DNA of 23,846 nt from a virus. Numbering within the stretch: position 1 is the first letter of the stretch; every line of letters starts with the position of its first letter. The notes below the pieces were generated by a model. The model worked only from the letters and a program-made list of their open reading frames with translations. It was not told where the DNA came from and did no database searches. The stretch spans positions 1 through 23,846 of the IMG/VR virus record IMGVR_UViG_3300047312_000186; one strand, 5' to 3'. Made by a program: the position numbers and the translations under genes. Positions 1 to 18,961 of the stretch are shown here, in pieces.

Positions 1-1433
1 GCCGCGGTGACCTGGGCCTTGTCGTAAGCGAGCAAACATTGCTGCCTCAGTGCCTCGCGATCCTGTTCTTCGGCGCAATTCAGAACGGCCGAAACGAACG
101 CGTCCTCGGCTTCGACACCATCGGTCAGCAGTTCCGCCCAACTCAACAAGCGGCGAAGCCCAATCCCCGCGGTCAATTGCTGTCCCTCGGCCGCGGCCCT
201 TGTCGTTGCTGCCGCGGCGATCAAGAGCGAAGCCAGTTCCGGCGTGCACCCGGTATATGAAACGATGATGTCCCGCTCTTGATCGGCCGGCATGTAGTCG
301 AATTTTACGCGCACCCCGAAACGATCAAGAAACGCTAAATTCAACTTGTTGGTGTCGGTAAACCCGCGCCGCGCACCGCCGCCAGTTCCGTTCGTGTTGT
401 CCCCGGCGATGAAAATTACGCCTTCGGCGACCTTCACGCGCCGGCCGGTTTCGCCGACATATAAAACCCTGTTGGCCAACACATTCTGCATGACGAACAA
501 GGCGCCTGGGCGTGCGAGTGAAGGCTCGTCTATCAGGACAACGCAACCGGGCGTCTGAATTGCGCGCGTCAGCTGGCCATCCTGCCAAGTAACCGCACCA
601 TCAGCACTCGGGACCGTCATCCCCACCAGCGTCGGGGCATCGGTGGCGCTGTCACAGGATATCAGCGCGAAGGGCCTCCCCGTCCGCGCGGCCAACTGCA
701 TTGCCCACTCGGTCTTGCCCGTGCCGGGGGGACCATACAGGAACGCGTTCCGGCCGCGCGCGATCTGTGTCAACGCGATGGCAGTCTGCGGTTGCGGCCA
801 GATATACCGCACGTTGATCTTGGGGGTGTCAGGGTGCGTCCCGTCCCAAAGCTTGGTGACGCGTGCGCCTAACGTGCCTTTCACGCCGCAAAGCTTCTTC
901 CAGGTTTCTTCCTTCCCCGTGCAACGCGCGATGTGCATGGCGGTCCCCGCGGTCCCCGCGGTCCCGGTAGCGCAAGGCGCGGCAGGAACGGGAACTTCGA
1001 CCGTGATGGTCACCGGCGGCTTGTTCGCCTGCGTGACCAGCTCGCGCAACCGGGCATCCAACGCGCCAAAGCCACCCGACACGATTAGTCCCCGCACCGC
1101 GGCAACCTGGGCTTCGATCGCATCGGCGCCGGCGTCCTCGCCGTCCTCGCCGTCCTCGCCGTTCTCGGCGCCGGCGTCCTCGTCGTCCTCGGCGCCGGCG
1201 TTCTCGCCGTCCTCGGCGCCGGCGTCCCGGGCCTCGCCGTTCCCGGTCACGGTGGCGGAACCGGAAGCAATGATGCGGCCCGCATCAATGCCCAGGGCAT
1301 GCGCCACAGTGATTAAATCGCCCAGGCGCAGGTCATTGATCTTGCGGCCGGCCAGGATGGCAGCGGCGCCAGGATGCGAGCGCACCGCGGCGCGCAACGC
1401 GTTGCGCCGGATGGCGCTAGGGGTGTTGGTCAT
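1..1433 (-). CDS. MoxR/CobS-like AAA+ ATPase (3' end off window)
   Basis: An open frame runs from ATG at 1433-1431 to the left edge without a stop, giving at least 477 residues. Walker A is GPPGTGKT at residues 234-241 (K240). Walker B is VVLIDEP, with D302 and E303. A sensor-1-like segment IFIAGDNTN and an LDRF arginine-finger-like segment follow. This arrangement fits the MoxR/CobS (AAA_5) branch of AAA+ ATPases, which remodel partner proteins and usually act with a von Willebrand A-domain protein encoded next door. Any such partner would lie beyond position 1. Residues 1-60 look helical and are unrecognised. Residues 70-104 are an acidic Ala-Gly-Glu-Asp repeat linker, and a short Gly-Thr-Ala repeat precedes the ATPase core. 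The start is supported by AAGGA about 8 nt upstream. ATPase class is confident; the biological role in the phage is unknown. Confidence 0.85.
   Translation of the reverse strand, partial: MTNTPSAIRRNALRAAVRSHPGAAAILAGRKINDLRLGDLITVAHALGIDAGRIIASGSATVTGNGEARDAGAEDGENAGAEDDEDAGAENGEDGEDGEDAGADAIEAQVAAVRGLIVSGGFGALDARLRELVTQANKPPVTITVEVPVPAAPCATGTAGTAGTAMHIARCTGKEETWKKLCGVKGTLGARVTKLWDGTHPDTPKINVRYIWPQPQTAIALTQIARGRNAFLYGPPGTGKTEWAMQLAARTGRPFALISCDSATDAPTLVGMTVPSADGAVTWQDGQLTRAIQTPGCVVLIDEPSLARPGALFVMQNVLANRVLYVGETGRRVKVAEGVIFIAGDNTNGTGGGARRGFTDTNKLNLAFLDRFGVRVKFDYMPADQERDIIVSYTGCTPELASLLIAAAATTRAAAEGQQLTAGIGLRRLLSWAELLTDGVEAEDAFVSAVLNCAEEQDREALRQQCLLAYDKAQVTA
1134..1228. repeat. Degenerate microsatellite encoding an acidic linker
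   Basis: Imperfect tandem units of the type tcctcgccg / tcggcgccggcg lie inside the AAA+ gene. On the minus strand they encode alternating Ala-Gly-Ala-Glu and Gly-Glu-Asp blocks at residues 70-104. A second short tandem, three copies of the 9-mer gcggtcccc (last base differs) at 940-966, encodes a Gly-Thr-Ala repeat in the next linker. Both look like replication-slippage expansions in disordered linkers. Confidence 0.75.
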
Positions 1434-1466
1434 TTGGGGCGTCCTTGTGTGTAGGGTGTGACAGAT
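1434..1466 (-). repeat. Leader repeat, copy 1 (5' of AAA+ gene)
   Basis: Read on the minus strand, the 33 nt immediately before the AAA+ start contain ATCTGTCACAC, CTACACACAAGGAC and GCCCCAA. This is nearly identical to the leader of the preceding 46-residue ORF (1609-1640), with one substitution and one extra base. It carries the AAGGA ribosome-binding site and fills almost the whole gap between the two genes. Confidence 0.85.
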
Positions 1467-1467
1467 A

Positions 1468-1608
1468 TCAGCGCGTGCGGCCGTTCCATTCCGGCGCCCA
1501 TCCGGCCGGCTTCACGCTGGCAAGCCATGCCTTTAATGCCGCGCGATTAGCGGCCGCTTGTTCGGCCGCTTTCGCCATTAACGCTTTGTATTCTTCATCG
1601 GTGGTCAT
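1468..1608 (-). CDS. 46-residue hypothetical protein upstream of AAA+ gene
   Basis: The frame starts at ATG 1608-1606 and stops with TGA at 1470-1468, encoding 46 residues. AAGGA lies about 7 nt before the ATG. A longer frame is open back to 1725, but it would run through the divergent intergenic region and lacks this ribosome-binding site, so the internal ATG is preferred. The product is Ala- and Lys-rich, predicted helical (residues about 4-32), with a Trp-containing basic tail. No family is recognised. It precedes the AAA+ gene by 34 nt on the same strand and shares its leader, so the two are probably co-expressed. It could be a small partner or regulator of the ATPase, or the residue of a leader-gene duplication. 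Confidence 0.55.
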   Translation of the reverse strand: MTTDEEYKALMAKAAEQAAANRAALKAWLASVKPAGWAPEWNGRTR

Positions 1609-1640
1609 TGGGGCGTCCTTGTGTGTAGTGTGTGACAGAT
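1609..1640 (-). repeat. Leader repeat, copy 2 (5' of 46-residue ORF)
   Basis: On the minus strand this 32-nt segment reads ATCTGTCACACACTACACAC followed by AAGGACGCCCCA, directly before the ATG at 1608. It matches copy 1 at 1434-1466 except for one substitution and one missing base. The repeat sits in the same place relative to both starts, so it duplicates a translation-initiation or regulatory leader. Confidence 0.85.
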
Positions 1641-1660
1641 CGTTCCCCGCGGCCGTGACA

Positions 1661-1680
1661 GACACAACGGGGACACAACA
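1661..1680 (+). promoter_or_regulatory. Paired GACACAAC motif in divergent intergenic region
   Basis: GACACAAC occurs at 1661-1668 and again at 1672-1679, starts 11 bp apart (about one helical turn). The pair lies 22 nt before the start of the gene at 1702 and about 55 nt from the divergent minus-strand start. Similar pairs lie before the tail-fibre gene (2574-2589, opposite orientation) and before the scaffold gene (13213-13234). It could be an operator or part of a phage promoter. No convincing sigma-70 promoter was found in 1641-1701. Confidence 0.4.
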
Positions 1681-1701
1681 AATAGTAGGCAAGACACGAA
1701 G

Positions 1702-2172
1702 ATGCAATCCCTTCCGCTGCAACAAGCACGCCGGTGCGTGAGCTGCGGTTCAATGGCGATCCGCGGCAGCATGTTTTGCAAGTGGCACCAGCCCGATTAC
1801 GTGCGCGCCAGGGACCGGGGGCCGCGAATACGGAACCATGGCGCGGGACAGGGACCGGGCGCCCAGGGACAACAGGACGCAGGCTCGGCGGGGACAACGG
1901 GGGGCAATATGGGTCTGCCCCGCAATGTGGTAACCGGTTATGTCAGTCCGGCGCGGCAGACCCTGCTCCAAATCGCGCGCGACACTAAAGCTAGTGCCAC
2001 GGCGCGGACATCGGCAGCACGTGCACTCGCTGAACTGGACGGTTATCTGGGCAAACATCAACAGGCGCCGGACCGCACGGCCGATAGCGTTTTGTCCTCG
2101 TTGTCCCGTGCTGATTTGGTGCGCGAACTTGCGAGGCTACGTGCGCGGTCCTCTGCATCCGACAGCACGTAA
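1702..2172 (+). CDS. Zinc-knuckle-like protein, possible small terminase subunit
   Basis: The gene encodes 156 residues. The N-terminus has C12-x2-C15-x10-C26-x2-H29, a plausible zinc-binding knuckle. A disordered Gly/Gln/Pro-rich stretch at about residues 45-70 follows, then a helical C-terminal part (about 80-150) whose pattern, with AARALAELDGYLGKH and SLSRADLVRELARL, resembles the helical region of phage small terminase subunits. A small terminase would bind the packaging site and activate TerL. Against this, TerL lies about 7 kb away, beyond the tail fibre. The upstream ribosome-binding site is weak; the ATG at 1702 is chosen because the Cys cluster needs an upstream start. The coding call is good; the TerS role is only a suggestion, and a transcriptional regulator is the main alternative. 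Confidence 0.6.
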   Translation: MQSLPLQQARRCVSCGSMAIRGSMFCKWHQPDYVRARDRGPRIRNHGAGQGPGAQGQQDAGSAGTTGGNMGLPRNVVTGYVSPARQTLLQIARDTKASATARTSAARALAELDGYLGKHQQAPDRTADSVLSSLSRADLVRELARLRARSSASDST

Positions 2173-2589: not shown

Positions 2590-2618
2590 GTGCGTTCTTG
2601 TGTGGGGACAGCACCCAG

Positions 2619-5600
2619 ATGGATGGCTCGTCACGCCCGCGCGCACCCCAGCCAGCGCCACCTGACCGCGCGTTTTCCTTTACCGATTGGCAGACAAACA
2701 ACCCAACGGCGCCGCCGCCGGGGGACAAAATCGACGCCGAGTTGGATCGGACCAATCAGGCCGTCGAAGACGTCATCGAGTGGGTTTCCACGAGCCTGAA
2801 CTCGGATGGGTCGCTGGTCGAGCCGCCCGGGACTGATCCCCCACCCCCGACCGGGGCCGTCGCCGAGGCTGAAGAGTGGGCTGTTGTGTCCCAGGCGTGG
2901 GCTGAGCACATGCCGGACACCATTCCACCCAACATTCTGGCGGAAATGGCGATCACCGGCGAGCATTGGTCGGCGCGCTGGTGGGCCAAGCAGGCGGCAG
3001 ATCAGGTGCAGAACCCTGACGCCCCCGACGATGGGTTCACCTACGGGCGGATGGCGCATCACTGGAAGCAGGTCCTGCCCCTGACCGGCGGGACCATCGA
3101 CGGCACTTTGACCGTCCTCGGGACCCCCTCCGATGGGGCGATGCACGTGCGTTCGGCGGCGGAATGGCCCGGGACCGTCTACCACATCGACAACGACACC
3201 GGTGGCGCTTTCCTGCGCAGCAACCGTGAAGGTCTCGCCCGTTGGCTCGTCTACCTGGGGGACGATGCCCCCGAGACGGGCGGCAATCAGGGCACCAACT
3301 TCAAGATCAGCCGCGCCGACGATGCCGGGAACGAAATCGACTTCCCGATCCAGATCGACCGTGCCACCGGGCAGGTGCTGATCAATGGTGTCGCCGGCGG
3401 CAGCGGTGGCAGCGGGCTGACGCCGCAACAGATCGACGCGCTTACTTATGGGGTGAAGGCCGATTACGTCGAGCTAAGCGGGGGCGTCCAGTGGTCCGGT
3501 AACGTTGTTACGCTTTTTGCACATAGTTTTGTCGCTGCTGATATCGGCAAAACGCTGCTGATGCCCGCAGGCGGGCCGGCCAATGCGCCGAAGCTGACGA
3601 CGATTACGGGCGTGGCGTTGGGCGCGGCAACCGTCGACCCTCCTGCTGACATCGACTTTTCCGGTCTGACCAACATCATCGGTGGACCCAACGGCACGCC
3701 CTGGAACATCGACGTCGCCGCTCCTGGTGCCGGGGGATCGTTCATCGGCGACGTACTGACCCTCGTTGCGCCCGCCATTCGGCCGGGGACGGTGCAGGTC
3801 ATCCAGACCACGGTGTTGAGCGCGACGGTCATCAACCCCGGCAGCAATGGCCCCGTGGGTGCCGTGCTCTTGCGCGGCACCACCGGATACGGGCGGCGTG
3901 TGGTGTTGTCGGGCACGGTCGATGCGACCGGGACGCTCTTGCCGGCGCTGACGCTCGATCCCGCCACGGGCGCTGACCCGGGCGCCTACTGGTTCGATGT
4001 CGAGGACCCCGCCAACGAGCCACTGCGGGCCGACCCGCAGAAGATCACCTTCCCGGCGCGCTGGGACACGTCCAACCCGGCGGTCACATTGGACAGCGGG
4101 CAGGTCTCTTCGCTTGTGATGCCGTCGATCCACGTGGGCGCGGTCATCTTCTGTGTCGACGACAATAATCAGGTCGCATTCCCGCCGCACACGACGGTGG
4201 TGAGCGTCGATACGCCGTCACTGACGATAACGGTGTCGAACACGGCGACCGTCACCAATGGCAGCTCTGGCCCGCAGAACGTCGATTTCAGCGACAACAA
4301 GCACGAGATCGCCTTTACGGCGACGTTCGGAAACAATGCCCTGATCATCCAGGCGACGGGACCGCTGCCTGCGGGTGTTGCCGTGGGGCAGGTTATCTAC
4401 GGTCCTGGCCTCAGCGGCGGCGGCGATCCGACCAATCCTGCCGCCGGCACCACCATCGAACTCATCACCTATCCGAACATCTTCATTTCGCGGCCGACCA
4501 CGCACGCCGCCTCAACGGCCGTGACGGTGCACGCGGTGCCTTACCTCACCGGTGCAGTCGTCCAACTCAATCTTGTGCCGGCAGTCCTCGCGTTCAAAGA
4601 CCGGGGTGCTTACACCGGTGCCCCGGGCACCTCTGGTGTTCCCTTCGCGACGACGCGTAACGGCATTCCCACCGACATCACGCTGTTGATCGACAACCCG
4701 ACGCGCAACGTGCCTGTCGCCATCAGCATGGGTACCGACAACACGGCGCAGATCAATGCGTGGCTGGCGGCGGCGCGCACTATGATGAATGCCAACGCCG
4801 GAGGCGTGGAAGCGACCCTGCGGCCCGGCCGCTACCTCACGCTGGGGACCGTTAACGCCCGCAACCTAAACCAGAACGGCTCGACGTTGCGCGTCAGCGG
4901 AGTGAGAATTGTCTCCGCTGCCCAAGGCTTGCGGGCATGGGACGCCTCCGGCGCGGCTTCATATCGCATGGTCGGCGACTTCGTCCTCACCGGCAATCAA
5001 CTCTTCCCGCCCGATATCGGGATGGTCTTTGCCTGGAGTGACACGCAGCTTCGATGCAACGGTTGTTCGCTGCGCGATATCAGCGCCACCGGCTGGTTCA
5101 GTTTCGCCTCGGTCTACATCGCGAACGCGGAAGGCTTCCACGTTATCAACATGCAAAGCGGAAACGCGATGCCGTGGCCGACCCCGATCGATCCGACGAA
5201 CCCGCTTTGGCACCCCACCTTTGGCAAGGTCATCGACGGCGACAACAGCTACAACAAACTCGACGGGCCGCCCCACAACACGCACGGCAGCTTTGTCGGC
5301 TTCCTGGAGGACAACGGCGCATCGAACTGCAATGGCGGCGCGGTTCCGTTCTCGGTCGTCGGCTGCGGCGGCTATACTAACCGGGCCGGCTATGCGGCGT
5401 CCTGGTCCACCCCGGCGATTTTCTTCTCTAAATCCGGACCCTCGGACCTGGATATCCACTGCGAGGTGGAGACACTTACTGACGCCATTTTCTTATGGGA
5501 TCGCAATAACGGCGTCGCCTCATTCAGCGGCAGCACGTTCAAGGACCATGCCTGCTACGCCACCAACTCAGTTTTTTCCTACGATCATCTCGCCAAGTTC

Positions 5601-6377
5601 GGTGTCCACATCGCCGCCTTCAACGCGACGAACTGCCGGGTGGCGGTCGGCCCGCAGCATAACAATATGCAGATATTTGACGACCATTTGGGCTTTCCCG
5701 GGTCGCTGGCCTGGCACGGCGACATCTCTGTCGGGGGCGTGCTGAAAACCTATGCGCCGCACTGGGTGCGGAACTTCCCCGACGACCGCGAGGGCATCCT
5801 GTATCTTGGCGACGACAAGACCAATTTCTATGGAGACATCGTCAACACCAGCACGCTTATCGCGGGCAGCGCGATCGTCCAGGGTAATGCGACGGTGTCG
5901 GGGCAGGTGTTTGCCGGTGACGGGCTGGTGCTCGGCGATGTGGGCTTCCCGCAGGGCACGCTGAAATTCGACGGCACTAACGTCACCTCGACCAAGCCGA
6001 TCAGTCTGCCGGATGGTTCGGTGGCGGTGACGCAGGCCCCTGGTGACAACGACACGAGCGTTGCCACCACAGCGTTCGTGCAAGCCGCTGCAAGCGCGGC
6101 GGTCAGCGGCGCGGCGGTGATCAACACGCAGACCATCGCCGCCATCACCGCCAACACGATCACCGTCCCCGCCGGGACCAACCACATTCTGGTGCAGGAC
6201 AGCATCAACGCGGTGAACACGCTCACGGTGGGCAGCGGCACGCTCGCGGACGGTTACGACATGTGGCTGCATTTTCCCAACGGCGGCTCGTTCGCCGGCG
6301 TGCCGGTGTCAGCGCACGGCAACCTCACCCTGAAGGTGTTCGCCGGCGGCTGGTCGATCTTGGCGAAGTTCGGATAG
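2619..6377 (+). CDS. Tail fibre / tailspike with beta-helix core
   Basis: The product is 1252 residues if ATG 2619 is used; it has a GGGGA about 12 nt upstream, whereas the longer frame from TTG 2598 lacks any ribosome-binding site. Residues 1-70 resemble the virion-anchoring N-terminus of podovirus fibres (FTDWQTNNP, DAELDRTNQAVEDVI). LTGGTIDGTLTV near 155 is a common fibre repeat, and a Gly/Ser linker lies near 260. YGVKAD at 277 and DNTAQINAWL at 707 with LRPGRYL near 734 are the two halves of a tailspike entry motif, here separated by a roughly 430-residue beta-rich insertion. Right-handed beta-helix-like sequence follows to about 1010. The C-terminal part carries QAPGDNDTSVATTAFV near 1140. 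The protein probably binds, and may cleave, cell-surface polysaccharide. Enzymatic activity cannot be read from sequence. Confidence 0.88.
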   Translation: MDGSSRPRAPQPAPPDRAFSFTDWQTNNPTAPPPGDKIDAELDRTNQAVEDVIEWVSTSLNSDGSLVEPPGTDPPPPTGAVAEAEEWAVVSQAWAEHMPDTIPPNILAEMAITGEHWSARWWAKQAADQVQNPDAPDDGFTYGRMAHHWKQVLPLTGGTIDGTLTVLGTPSDGAMHVRSAAEWPGTVYHIDNDTGGAFLRSNREGLARWLVYLGDDAPETGGNQGTNFKISRADDAGNEIDFPIQIDRATGQVLINGVAGGSGGSGLTPQQIDALTYGVKADYVELSGGVQWSGNVVTLFAHSFVAADIGKTLLMPAGGPANAPKLTTITGVALGAATVDPPADIDFSGLTNIIGGPNGTPWNIDVAAPGAGGSFIGDVLTLVAPAIRPGTVQVIQTTVLSATVINPGSNGPVGAVLLRGTTGYGRRVVLSGTVDATGTLLPALTLDPATGADPGAYWFDVEDPANEPLRADPQKITFPARWDTSNPAVTLDSGQVSSLVMPSIHVGAVIFCVDDNNQVAFPPHTTVVSVDTPSLTITVSNTATVTNGSSGPQNVDFSDNKHEIAFTATFGNNALIIQATGPLPAGVAVGQVIYGPGLSGGGDPTNPAAGTTIELITYPNIFISRPTTHAASTAVTVHAVPYLTGAVVQLNLVPAVLAFKDRGAYTGAPGTSGVPFATTRNGIPTDITLLIDNPTRNVPVAISMGTDNTAQINAWLAAARTMMNANAGGVEATLRPGRYLTLGTVNARNLNQNGSTLRVSGVRIVSAAQGLRAWDASGAASYRMVGDFVLTGNQLFPPDIGMVFAWSDTQLRCNGCSLRDISATGWFSFASVYIANAEGFHVINMQSGNAMPWPTPIDPTNPLWHPTFGKVIDGDNSYNKLDGPPHNTHGSFVGFLEDNGASNCNGGAVPFSVVGCGGYTNRAGYAASWSTPAIFFSKSGPSDLDIHCEVETLTDAIFLWDRNNGVASFSGSTFKDHACYATNSVFSYDHLAKFGVHIAAFNATNCRVAVGPQHNNMQIFDDHLGFPGSLAWHGDISVGGVLKTYAPHWVRNFPDDREGILYLGDDKTNFYGDIVNTSTLIAGSAIVQGNATVSGQVFAGDGLVLGDVGFPQGTLKFDGTNVTSTKPISLPDGSVAVTQAPGDNDTSVATTAFVQAAASAAVSGAAVINTQTIAAITANTITVPAGTNHILVQDSINAVNTLTVGSGTLADGYDMWLHFPNGGSFAGVPVSAHGNLTLKVFAGGWSILAKFG

Positions 6378-9064: not shown

Positions 9065-10632
9065 CCCCTGACGAACAACGCTACGAGCTTTGTCTCAAGC
9101 GGCTGATCGCCATCCTCGACGCCGAGAAGGCGATGCTCGCCTTCACGCGGTTGATGAAGCCGACGCCGGATGACCCCGACGATCCCGACTGCACCCGCTA
9201 CGAGGCGCAGAAATTCCACAAGGTCATCTGCGCGGCGATCGAGGAGCTTGAAGCCGGCCGCATCAGGCGGCTGATCATCAGCCTGCCGCCGCGGCACGGG
9301 AAAACTGAGCTTGCCTCGAAGATGTTTCCGGCCTGGTTTTCGGGCCGGAACCCGCATCTGAGTCTGATCTTCGGCACCTACAACGAGAAATTTTCCCAGG
9401 ACATCGGCCGTGCGGTCCGGGACATCATGCTGTCCCCGGCCTACGCCCAGGTGTTCCCGGACACGATCCTGAAAGGCGACAGCAAAGCCTCGGATCGCCT
9501 GCAAACCACCAAGGGTGGCATCCTCGCCTTCGTCGGCCGCGGCGGCACCACCACCGGCCGCGGCGGTGATGTGCTGATCATCGATGACCCGCTCAAGGAT
9601 CGCCAGGAGGCCGACAGTCCGACCATCCGCGACACGCTCTGGACATGGTTCAGCCAGGTGATTTCCACCCGCCTGATGGACGAAACCGGACGGATCATGC
9701 TGATCCAGACGCGCTGGCACCAGGACGACCTCGTCGGCCGGCTGACCGACCCGACGAACTCGCACTACGACGTCGACGAGGCGAAGCAGTGGAGCATCAT
9801 CGACCTGCCGGCGCTGGCGATTGATCCCGATCACGATCCCCTCAAGCGCAAGCCCGGCGAAGCTCTCTGGCCCGGGCGTTTCGGGACCGAATACCTGCTT
9901 GGCGTGCAGCGCCGCGATGCGCGCGGTTTCTCGGCACTCTACCAGGGCCGTCCCTCGCCCGCCGGCGGCACGTTCTTCAGTGCCAAGTGGCTGAAGACCT
10001 ACAAGCCTGCCGACCTGCCCAGCAACCTGCGCTACTACGGTGCGTCCGACCACGCGGTCAGCCTCAAGCAATATGCCGACAAGACGTGCCTGCTGCTGGT
10101 CGGCCTCGATGCCGAAGAGAACATCTACGTGCTGCCGGACCTCGTGTGGCGGTCGATGACCGCGGAGCAGTGTGTCGAGGCGATGCTGCGCATGATGCGC
10201 GGCTACAAGCCCATGTTCTGGTGGGCCGAACGCAGCATGATCAGCAAGTCGATCGGGCCGTTCTTGAGAAAACGCATGCTTGAGACCCAGACCTTCTGTT
10301 CGGTGATCGAAATGCAGCCGATCGCCGACAAGCAGACCCGCGCCCAGTCGATCCAGGGGCGCATGTCGATGGAGAAGGTGCTGTTCCCGGAGCGCGCGCC
10401 CTGGTGGCCTGCGGCGCGGGACCAGCTGCTCAAGTTTCCGCACGACCAGCACGACGATTTCGTCGATGCGCTCGCCTACGTGGGCCTTGGCCTGACGCTT
10501 CAGGTGGGCGCCGGCGTGCGGGCCGAAAAGAAGCCCGACAACGCCGAGGGCACGTTCGGCTGGATGATCGATCAGCGGCGTATCGCCGAGAAATCCGTGC
10601 GTCTCGGCTTCGGCGGGACAGGGGGCTGGTAA
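9061..10632 (+). CDS. terL: Terminase large subunit (packaging ATPase-nuclease)
   Basis: This 523-residue protein starts at GTG 9061, coupled to the previous stop. The ATPase half has Walker A PPRHGKT at residues 76-82 (K81), Walker B VLIIDD at 171-176 and a coupling motif IQTRWH at 215-220. A T-G-R-G-G segment just before Walker B is usual in TerL. The RNase H-like nuclease half has D330 (YGASDHA), E390 (WWAERS) and D466/D469 (HDDFVDAL) as likely metal ligands. The enzyme cuts concatemeric DNA and pumps it into proheads through the portal, whose gene follows 4 nt later. All key residues and the full length are present. Cohesive-end, headful or direct-terminal-repeat packaging cannot be told from this alone, although the T7-like neighbours make terminal repeats plausible. 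Confidence 0.97.
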   Translation: MTPDEQRYELCLKRLIAILDAEKAMLAFTRLMKPTPDDPDDPDCTRYEAQKFHKVICAAIEELEAGRIRRLIISLPPRHGKTELASKMFPAWFSGRNPHLSLIFGTYNEKFSQDIGRAVRDIMLSPAYAQVFPDTILKGDSKASDRLQTTKGGILAFVGRGGTTTGRGGDVLIIDDPLKDRQEADSPTIRDTLWTWFSQVISTRLMDETGRIMLIQTRWHQDDLVGRLTDPTNSHYDVDEAKQWSIIDLPALAIDPDHDPLKRKPGEALWPGRFGTEYLLGVQRRDARGFSALYQGRPSPAGGTFFSAKWLKTYKPADLPSNLRYYGASDHAVSLKQYADKTCLLLVGLDAEENIYVLPDLVWRSMTAEQCVEAMLRMMRGYKPMFWWAERSMISKSIGPFLRKRMLETQTFCSVIEMQPIADKQTRAQSIQGRMSMEKVLFPERAPWWPAARDQLLKFPHDQHDDFVDALAYVGLGLTLQVGAGVRAEKKPDNAEGTFGWMIDQRRIAEKSVRLGFGGTGGW

Positions 10633-17070: not shown

Positions 17071-18497
17071 TGCCCGATGCCGGCGTCTTCACGATCAGCG
17101 ACTTCCTGGGTGGGCTGGACACGCGCAAGACTGCGCTGACGGCGCCATCGGGGACGTTGCGCATTCTTGAGAACGCCGTGCTCAACCCCGGCGGCGAAAT
17201 CGAGAAGCGGCTGGCGTTCGTGCCGGTGGCGACGCTCACTTTCGACCAGTATATTTTCGGGCAGGGGGACAGCCTGCATACGTTCCGCTGGGAACTGGCC
17301 CCCGCCATCACGCCCGGGACATGTCCCGTGCCGATCGTCGGGCACACGCTTACCGGCGCGCTGGGCGGTGATCCCGTCATCCAGGATGTCGAAGCCTACA
17401 CCGGCAGGTTCCAGGTCTCGATGGTCGACGGGGTGACCGGCGAGAGCGCCGTGTTCTGGGACGGGTTCCGGCTGGTCGACACCGGCCCCGGGGGTCTCCC
17501 CGCCTTCGGCAGCTACTCGCGCACGTTCCGTTCCAAGATGTATCGCATCGACGGCGAGTTCCTGCGCTTCTCGGGCATCGGCGATCCCGGCGTGCTCGAT
17601 CCGGCCGCGCCCGCGCCCAATAACGGCGCCGGCTTCATCAACATCGCCGAGCAGGACCCTGATGCCGAGGAGCTTCAGGGGATGGAACTATACTACAACA
17701 GCATGGCGATCCTTTCGCGCCTGCAAACCACGATCTGGACGCTCGATCCTGATCCGGTGAAATCAGCGATCCAGCAGACCTTACGCATCGGCACCGTGGC
17801 CCCGCACTCGATCCTGCAATTCGGGACCGGCGACGTGCTGTTCCTGTCCGACAGCGGCGTGCGCAGCCTGCACGCGCAGACGATGAACCTCTCGGCGTCG
17901 GTCACGGACGTCGGTTCGGCGATCGACCCGATTTTGATCCCGATCATCCGCGACAACCCGGTCCTGGCCGCGAAGGCGCGGGCCACCATCCAGCCGGTCA
18001 ACGGACGCTACTGGCTGCATCTGGCCGGCAAGATTTATGTCCTGTCCTACTTCCCGTCCTCGAAGATCACCGCGTGGAGCGTGTTCGATCCGGGCTTCGA
18101 GGTGCAGGAGTTCGCGGTCGTGCAGAACCGGGTTTTCGCGCGCGGTCCCGATGGCACGGTCTATCTCTACGGCGGTCCCACGCTCAAGGAATATGATAGC
18201 TGCAAGGTAACAGTGCGTACGCCGCATCTGGCGATCGAAAGCCCCACCACCACCAAGCGGCTCAAGTCGATCGACGTCATGTGCGAGGGCAACTGGTCGC
18301 TCGCTGTCGGCATGCTGCCGAACAACCTCGAAGCGTTCGAGTTGGTAGCCAACCTCGCGGACAACACCTACGGCGAAAAGTCGATCCCCTTCGCCGGCGT
18401 CGGTTCGCACGTCGCCATACACATGGAGCATCAGGCACCGGGGCCGGCCAAGCTCGCCGCCATCCACGTCAACCCGCAATTAGGCTGGACAAAATGA
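17070..18497 (+). CDS. Tail tubular protein B / stabilisation protein (gp12- or gp10-like)
   Basis: This 475-residue protein starts at ATG 17070, overlapping the adaptor stop by one base; a GTG at 17067 is also possible. The N-terminus has DFLGGLDTRKTALTAPSGTLRILENAVLNPGGEIEKRLAFV, the signature arrangement of tail-nozzle proteins in which a Gly-Gly-x-x-x-x-R-x turn precedes a beta-propeller-like body. The body is rich in short beta segments (YSRTFRSKMYRIDGEFLRFSG, IGTVAPHSILQFGTGDVLFLSDSGVRSLHAQ). It would build the distal tail nozzle below the adaptor and carry the fibre. The stop is overlapped by the start of the HNH gene. CGGGACATGTCCCG, a perfect 14-bp palindrome, lies at 17315-17328. 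Confidence 0.82.
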   Translation: MPDAGVFTISDFLGGLDTRKTALTAPSGTLRILENAVLNPGGEIEKRLAFVPVATLTFDQYIFGQGDSLHTFRWELAPAITPGTCPVPIVGHTLTGALGGDPVIQDVEAYTGRFQVSMVDGVTGESAVFWDGFRLVDTGPGGLPAFGSYSRTFRSKMYRIDGEFLRFSGIGDPGVLDPAAPAPNNGAGFINIAEQDPDAEELQGMELYYNSMAILSRLQTTIWTLDPDPVKSAIQQTLRIGTVAPHSILQFGTGDVLFLSDSGVRSLHAQTMNLSASVTDVGSAIDPILIPIIRDNPVLAAKARATIQPVNGRYWLHLAGKIYVLSYFPSSKITAWSVFDPGFEVQEFAVVQNRVFARGPDGTVYLYGGPTLKEYDSCKVTVRTPHLAIESPTTTKRLKSIDVMCEGNWSLAVGMLPNNLEAFELVANLADNTYGEKSIPFAGVGSHVAIHMEHQAPGPAKLAAIHVNPQLGWTK

Positions 18498-18961
18498 TAT
18501 CGAAACGAACCGGTCCTGTTCCGCATCACTGGTCGCACTGGGTTAGTCCTGAACCAAACAGCGGTTGTTGGTTGTGGGAGGGGCAGACCAGCAGCGAGGG
18601 TCGCGCCACGCTAATGCGGCACATTAACGGTAAGCGCCGCAATCTTAGAGCTGCCCGGTTAGTGTGGGAGGAAATCAACGGACCAATTCCGACTGACAAA
18701 TGGGTGCTTCATCGTTGCCACAACAAGGCATGCGTCAATCCTGAGCATCTTTACCTTGGCACACATAGAGAGAACATGCAGGACATGGCGCGTTCTGGTG
18801 TCAAAAAACGTGTCTACCGCACGCACTGTCCTCGTGGACATCGTTACGATCTGCGTTATTCCTACCCGTATCAAAACATCTTGCAAGCGTGTTCGACCTG
18901 CAACCGGGATAGGTATCGCACTCACAAGGCCCTCTTTTTTGCCGAAAAGATTTCGGCATGA
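18494..18961 (+). CDS. HNH endonuclease (free-standing homing type)
   Basis: This 155-residue protein starts at ATG 18494, overlapping the previous stop (ATGA); an open frame continues upstream in another frame of the tail gene but is not credible. CWLWEG at 25-30 and the core with H73, C75, C80, N82 and H85 (LHRCHNKACVNPEHLYLGT) followed by N94 match phage HNH nucleases. C112, H116, C133 and C136 form a probable C-terminal zinc site (CPRGH, CSTC). Such enzymes nick or cut a cognate intronless site and spread themselves by recombination. Base composition is clearly less GC-rich than the flanking genes, a sign of independent acquisition. All core HNH residues are present, so it is probably active. 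Confidence 0.93.
   Translation: MISKRTGPVPHHWSHWVSPEPNSGCWLWEGQTSSEGRATLMRHINGKRRNLRAARLVWEEINGPIPTDKWVLHRCHNKACVNPEHLYLGTHRENMQDMARSGVKKRVYRTHCPRGHRYDLRYSYPYQNILQACSTCNRDRYRTHKALFFAEKISA

Follow-up and report, generated by a model that had tools for sequence, protein, structure and literature searches.

The window analysed here, i.e. the complete IMG/VR record IMGVR_UViG_3300047312_000186 (23,846 bases), begins with a minus-strand gene for an AAA+ ATPase, ahead of which lie a short open reading frame (ORF46) on the same strand and, across an intergenic region, a divergent gene (Table 1). The AAA_5 and CbbQ_C domains of the AAA+ protein pass their respective cut-offs, and the PHROG that this protein matches best bears the label porphyrin biosynthesis. 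We call it CobS-like only, because its TIGR01650 (CobS) score of 54 bits, obtained for a protein cut off at the record's end, is far under the cut-off of 558.55. In the closest relative of the window, introduced below, the AAA+ gene is followed by one for a 693-residue protein with a VWA match below cut-off, and in Microcystis phage Mae-Yong1326-1 (OP028995) an annotated CobS is followed by CobT. The locus thus resembles phage cobS/cobT genes such as those of Mae-Yong1326-1, where a CobS-like AAA+ gene, followed by CobT, is divergent from another gene, but it differs in the small frame ahead of cobS, since no gene is annotated between CobS and the divergent gene of Mae-Yong1326-1. An acidic low-complexity linker of the AAA+ protein (window 1115-1249) weakly matches (52% over 46 residues, E 0.002) positions 10277-10414 of locus L004, which form the tandem-repeat region of the relative's 693-residue protein downstream of AAA+. 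Elsewhere in the window, a tail-fibre-like ORF of 1259 residues (2598-6377) has, by eye, kept ends and a strongly different middle with respect to the relative's 1455-residue version, and a frame between tail-region genes (18281-18961) has an HNH-endonuclease-like look in its later part, again judged from the motif by eye.

Table 1. Features at and ahead of the start of the AAA+ gene (window coordinates).
Feature	Position	Strand	Remarks
AAA+ ATPase gene, CobS-like	3..1433	-	AAA_5 + CbbQ_C; runs off left record end
Leader copy B	1434..1466	-	before AAA+ gene; starts one base past ORF46 stop codon
ORF46	1468..1608	-	46 codons from ATG, stop TGA 1468-1470; one helix predicted, residues 4-32
Leader copy A	1608..1640	-	before ORF46; resident operon leader by position
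CTGTCAC-N16-CTGTCAC direct repeat	1632..1661	-	period 23; also in G001 and G025
Upstream block	1669..1689	-	common to G001 and, save one C, to G025, which is more distant; resembles a promoter by eye only; outside the duplication
Divergent 156-aa gene	1702..2172	+	other side of shared intergenic region

The starts of ORF46 and of the AAA+ gene are preceded by the two copies of a 33-nt direct repeat, both read on the minus strand. A repeat search of the window found them to be 97% identical (32/33 positions), and a pattern search allowing up to 3 mismatches returned these two sites only, against a chance expectation of 0.00 (two matches were obtained in 0 of 100 shuffles). The preliminary description of this DNA, which had reported a 33-nt leader duplicated before two adjacent minus-strand genes, with one substitution and one base between the copies, is borne out in both respects: the copies differ by a substitution at 1455/1629 and by one extra A ahead of the AAA+ start codon, and their minus-strand consensus is ATCTGTCACAC[A/C]CTACACACAAGGACGCCCCAA(A)ATGACCA. 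In each copy an AAGGA ribosome-binding site lies 7-8 nt ahead of the ATG. The same description held the two coding sequences to be unlike, which is correct past ATGACCA, where ORF46 and the AAA+ gene show no resemblance, but not for their first bases: the identity continues past the start codon through ATGACCA, so that both proteins start with M-T, and base 1608, the last of copy A, is the A of the ORF46 ATG. It had also proposed a search for further copies, especially left of position 1. Since the window is the entire record, nothing lies left of position 1 in it; the record holds 2 copies of the leader and no further ones, and the 25-nt leader core has no exact match in genome_contigs.

A search of viral contigs with the leader identified one contig, IMGVR_UViG_3300046516_001081 (G001, also L011 among the AAA+ relatives), in which TerL is 99% and AAA+ 91% identical to that of the window. 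There the flank of leader A leads into a single leader and then directly into the AAA+ gene, with ORF46 and one leader absent, and the alignment with the window shows a clean insertion whose flanks are colinear on both sides. With up to 3 mismatches allowed, the leader occurs once in this 51.9-kb contig; even at up to 11 mismatches the four pieces spanning the contig yield no second copy. Because the upstream flank of copy A equals the flank of this single leader, we take copy A to be the resident leader. Differences between the window and the relative amount to 1/61 positions upstream, 21/471 in the divergent gene, 21/898 in AAA+ (3-900) and 16/135 in the first 135 nt of AAA+. The difference between the leaders is of the same order as this local divergence, so that their likeness needs no selection. 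TerL relatives, searched for in genome_contigs with the host in mind, were not found.

ORF46 and the second leader are best read as a derived insertion and not as a genome-wide motif. We consider it likely, with a probability of about three in four, that a phage cobS/cobT-like operon acquired a small orphan gene at its head by insertion, with the leader duplicated in the process. ORF46 would have entered ahead of the AAA+ gene, and the insertion would have duplicated the translation-initiation leader, i.e. about 33 nt that include the AAGGA site and extend past the start codon as far as the first base of codon 3. ORF46 would then have taken the resident leader A, and the AAA+ gene would have kept copy B right behind the ORF46 stop. 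One transcript would probably run from a promoter upstream of copy A, with ribosomes entering separately at each leader copy; each gene has a ribosome site of its own, because AAA+ leaders carry one and copy B begins one base past the ORF46 stop. The preliminary description had offered two readings, and the first, in which a recent duplication allowed an additional gene to enter under a start signal of its own, is supported by the empty site in the relative and by the lack of an ORF46-like gene in 22 of 23 relatives (see below). Points that weigh against the insertion are the occurrence of ORF46 in one contig without a homologue, the lack of a promoter in the consensus scan, the weaker ribosome site and diverged leader of the more distant relative G025, and a single leader in the closest relative that does not combine A and B in a simple way (see below). 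This seems to be an ordinary kind of gene gain in one phage, apparently caught with the empty site still available, and it suggests a simple route: when an initiation leader is duplicated through the start codon, a gene may be added ahead while the translation of the next gene is left undisturbed.

ORF46 itself is probably a gene, and we infer that it is translated. Its 46 codons, counted from the ATG, belong to a longer open frame of 85 codons (1468-1725), which opens with TTG at 1725 and runs through leader A. The codon-usage score of its frame, 0.573, is the best of six, by a small margin over an antisense frame (0.533); on the same yardstick 46-codon pieces of real genes have a median of 0.72, and the 95th percentile of wrong-frame pieces is 0.50. 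AlphaFold, run on the single sequence without an alignment, predicts one helix (residues 4-32, mean pLDDT 74). No homologues were detected in phages, plasmids, Pfam, NCBIfam or viral_contigs, the one PHROG match being phrog_16646 with E 0.076, and ORF46 is present in one contig only; exact stretches of the insert in the other sequences compared are at most 15 nt long. Of 30 records searched with ORF46 one, that of L017, gave a match (39% over 23 residues, E 0.03), which was read as chance, because the 31-residue frame concerned crosses a long open frame in another register, and a 27-nt DNA match of 92.6% in Acinetobacter phage nACB2 (E 0.1) was likewise taken as chance. The insert might instead be a non-coding by-product of the duplication, with an accidental open frame. 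An orphan of 46 codons seen once is compatible with such an origin, as open frames of this length are by our estimate not rare, and so are a frame that stays open upstream of its ATG and a moderate codon usage nearly equalled in antisense. Since the ATG is properly spaced from a ribosome-binding site and the stop lies one base from copy B, and since structure prediction, albeit on one sequence alone, gives a helix, we regard this explanation as unlikely, but as one to be taken seriously.

The second reading in the preliminary description was a control element shared by the two genes, i.e. a leader bound by a protein or a small RNA and kept alike for their co-regulation. Its wider use in the window phage is unsupported, as there are no more copies in the record or in the contig of the closest relative; the window copies are no more alike than a recent duplication would give, the leader RNA folds no better than its shuffles (z +1.43), and the window has no match to an Rfam family. 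What speaks for this reading, unproven as it is, comes from a distant group of phages. In the 23rd of the AAA+ relatives (L091, record G037), whose AAA+ protein is 32% identical to that of the window, the window's leader matches at 20/33 positions, and this match is in perfect register with the start of a gene of 76 residues ahead of AAA+; and AAGGAAACAGTGACATG occurs twice in the 19.5 kb of L091 and nowhere else at up to 3 mismatches. The 14-nt core AGGAAACAGTGACA, searched with up to 2 mismatches, is present exactly twice and without mismatch in 5/5 contigs of the group, and the backwards-read control matched once in 4/5 (a sixth locus, L145, matched without the gene's 5' end and was not usable). 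The five contigs form two lineages, with 75% identity between their AAA+ proteins and 69%, over 70 residues, between their small proteins; in the four aligned leaders (two per lineage) the core is identical despite different flanks, and one lineage shares with the window the additional A ahead of the AAA+ start. On the other side, the leaders of the window and of the second group have little in common beyond the ribosome-binding site. On balance a shared control element appears to us rather improbable for the window, although the second group keeps the reading of shared translational control alive.

The small proteins of the second group show no likeness to ORF46 and have no match in phage records, and their AAA+ gene is followed by one for a protein with a CobT_C domain. 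The conserved 76-79-residue gene before the CobS-like AAA+ gene, with AGGAAACAGTGACA at both starts, is seen at L141 3663-4003 (G037), at L143 3652-4003 and in records G038-G041; G037 also has a 28-residue membrane-like frame between the small gene and the AAA+ gene. One may speculate that phage cobS/cobT-like operons repeatedly recruit a small head gene, yoked to cobS by an identical leader, and that the small protein would be needed in step with AAA+ as a partner or adaptor. There would be at least two independent origins, ORF46 and the unrelated 76-79-residue gene, with the matched leaders of the latter kept through divergence. We hold this idea to be doubtful, slightly more so than the control element itself; should the parallel seen in the second group prove functional, it would point to a small protein that partners the CobS/CobT-like ATPases of phages.

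The direction of change was considered with 23 AAA+ relatives, among them the closest one, in which the leader was compared ungapped with 700 nt upstream. Left out of this set were G008 (start not settled), Mae-Yong1326-1 (cited apart), L005 and L092-L109 (whose likeness lies mainly within the ATPase domain), L120 and L124 (without 5' end), L145 (whose match starts only at query residue 191) and contigs fetched twice; L142-L144 and L146, found later, are outside the 23 and were treated with L091. A single leader and no ORF46-like gene ahead of AAA+ were found in 22 of the 23, with a best upstream leader match of 15-19/33 positions, compared with 32/33 in the window. In 6/22 (L011, L084, L051, G025, G026 and G012) a loose filter for ribosome sites lets through frames that start with GTG and are 30-60 codons long; we take them as chance, because two run past the AAA+ start and none is like ORF46. 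That the leader belongs to the AAA+ gene follows from 18 aligned relatives; in these the leader of AAA+, for the most part CA-rich, includes a site of the AAGG, AGGA or GAGGT type. G025, which by TerL (87%) is the nearest outgroup that has the region, possesses one leader, with a weaker ribosome site (GGAAAGACG) and otherwise diverged. Parsimony favours a gain of ORF46 in the lineage of the window, and this is the direction that we infer.

The converse history, in which ORF46 and two leaders are ancestral and recombination between the 33-nt repeats deleted ORF46 in the relative, draws on the ability of direct repeats of such size to delete the sequence between them. The authors who compared the mycobacteriophages Island3 and Brujita could not, in the part of their report dealing with Island3 gene 68, decide the direction in that similar case (PMC3029335). 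Against an ancestral ORF46, it is also lacking in the more distant relatives, G025 included. Against a deletion by repeat recombination, the leader of the relative does not run from A-type to B-type. Its two variable positions read C, as in copy B, and then CCAATG, as in copy A, unlike the single copy of the Island3 case, which is a recombinant, although insertions of that kind do not require this. As it is no hybrid of A and B, one change must be placed in each window copy, and judging by its sequence the relative's leader equals a parental form that underwent one change on the way to A and one on the way to B. We therefore find a deletion in the relative quite improbable. It is very improbable that the arrangement is an assembly artefact in which two strains were joined at a common leader, for although the record is metagenomic, the copies differ by two changes and the sequence flanking them on either side is colinear with that of the relative.

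The intergenic region upstream of copy A contains the block CCTACTATTTGTTGTGT, shared by the window and G025, and the CTGTCAC-N16-CTGTCAC repeat, of which only the second half falls inside the duplicated leader. In comparison with G025, the unduplicated block is better conserved than the duplicated stretch; we did not notice the block in other relatives among the 18 aligned. A consensus scan of 1400-1800 revealed no sigma-70-type site, and the promoter placed upstream of copy A is putative, based on conservation with G025 only. Block and repeat together (1632-1689, minus strand), located between the divergent genes and kept in both G001 and G025, could be an operator.

Among known systems the closest precedent is gene 68 of Island3, an 85-residue orphan found in one of two close Cluster I mycobacteriophages and flanked by a short direct repeat of which Brujita has one copy; in the passages devoted to it the difference is explained by insertion or deletion through recombination (PMC3029335). 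ORF46 is likewise an orphan in one of two close relatives, flanked by a repeat, with an empty site that retains one copy. The two cases differ in that, as the Island3 case is presented there, the repeat lies at the 3' ends of genes and the single copy of Brujita is a clean recombinant, whereas in the window it is a translation leader with a start codon, and the relative's copy is not such a recombinant (PMC3029335). Closest in anatomy are the Start-Associated Sequences (SAS) of Cluster K mycobacteriophages, described in the relevant part of the source as 13 bp long and found at 93 sites over the phages studied, before many genes (PMC3203893). As in the window, the repeat holds a ribosome-binding site a few bases before the starts of different genes, but SAS have many copies genome-wide, according to the same part of that source, and the window has 2 adjacent copies and its relative 1 in 51.9 kb (PMC3203893). 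Nor does the link of SAS to the same gene families have a counterpart here: relatives do carry a similar type of leader ahead of AAA+, but ORF46 and its leader copy are absent from 22/23 relatives and the 23rd has an unrelated gene. Among the literature titles that matched in short lists none dealt with a phage cobS gene whose start leader is duplicated; this does not prove that no such work exists.

The PeSL mobile regulatory cassettes of T4-type phages, reportedly described by Arbiol and colleagues in 2010, are said to be non-coding regulatory segments that flank inserted genes and carry an early promoter and a stem-loop; neither a PeSL-like early promoter nor a stem-loop was detected in the duplicated leader.

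The sharing of leaders between neighbouring genes was surveyed in 110 sequences (1.17 Mb) as pairs of ribosome-site-bearing starts, with open-ended frames allowed. Among nearby pairs (60-1,500 nt), 11 of 12,204 share at least 14 bases up to the start region; they come from 7 sequences, with 6 of the 11 rows contributed by L031 and L032, and the pairs of the window and of G037 tie for the most shared 14-mers among all 12,204. For farther pairs the figure is 5 of 53,417, in 3 sequences. A looser survey gave 26 pairs versus 1, 0, 0 and 0 in shifted controls, which flatter the contrast because they lack shared ribosome sites, so that the far pairs are the fairer control. Its 26 rows do not include the window's own pair (one-base shift, and an AAA+ frame open at the record's end); L095 accounts for 13, mostly through its antisense frames, and alternative starts in L031 and L032 account for 6. 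Since the loci were mostly fetched via AAA+ or TerL genes, AAA+ starts are over-sampled, and with a sample so centred the coincidence at CobS-like genes is suggestive only. These counts indicate that leader sharing between neighbours is uncommon, but not unique.

Two further loci deserve mention. Several of the plus-strand starts at 1280, 1627, 2069, 2494, 3726 and 4955 of L095 have a common leader of TCCTGAAAGGA type, which makes it a many-copy, SAS-like repeat associated with starts in an unrelated phage. In L106 a leader of the type TTAGTACC..TAAGGT..GGTATGA is found before two small frames (starts 4801 and 6087, reverse complement), and it resembles the leader of the AAA+ gene on the other strand, whose start lies 87 nt before 3001.
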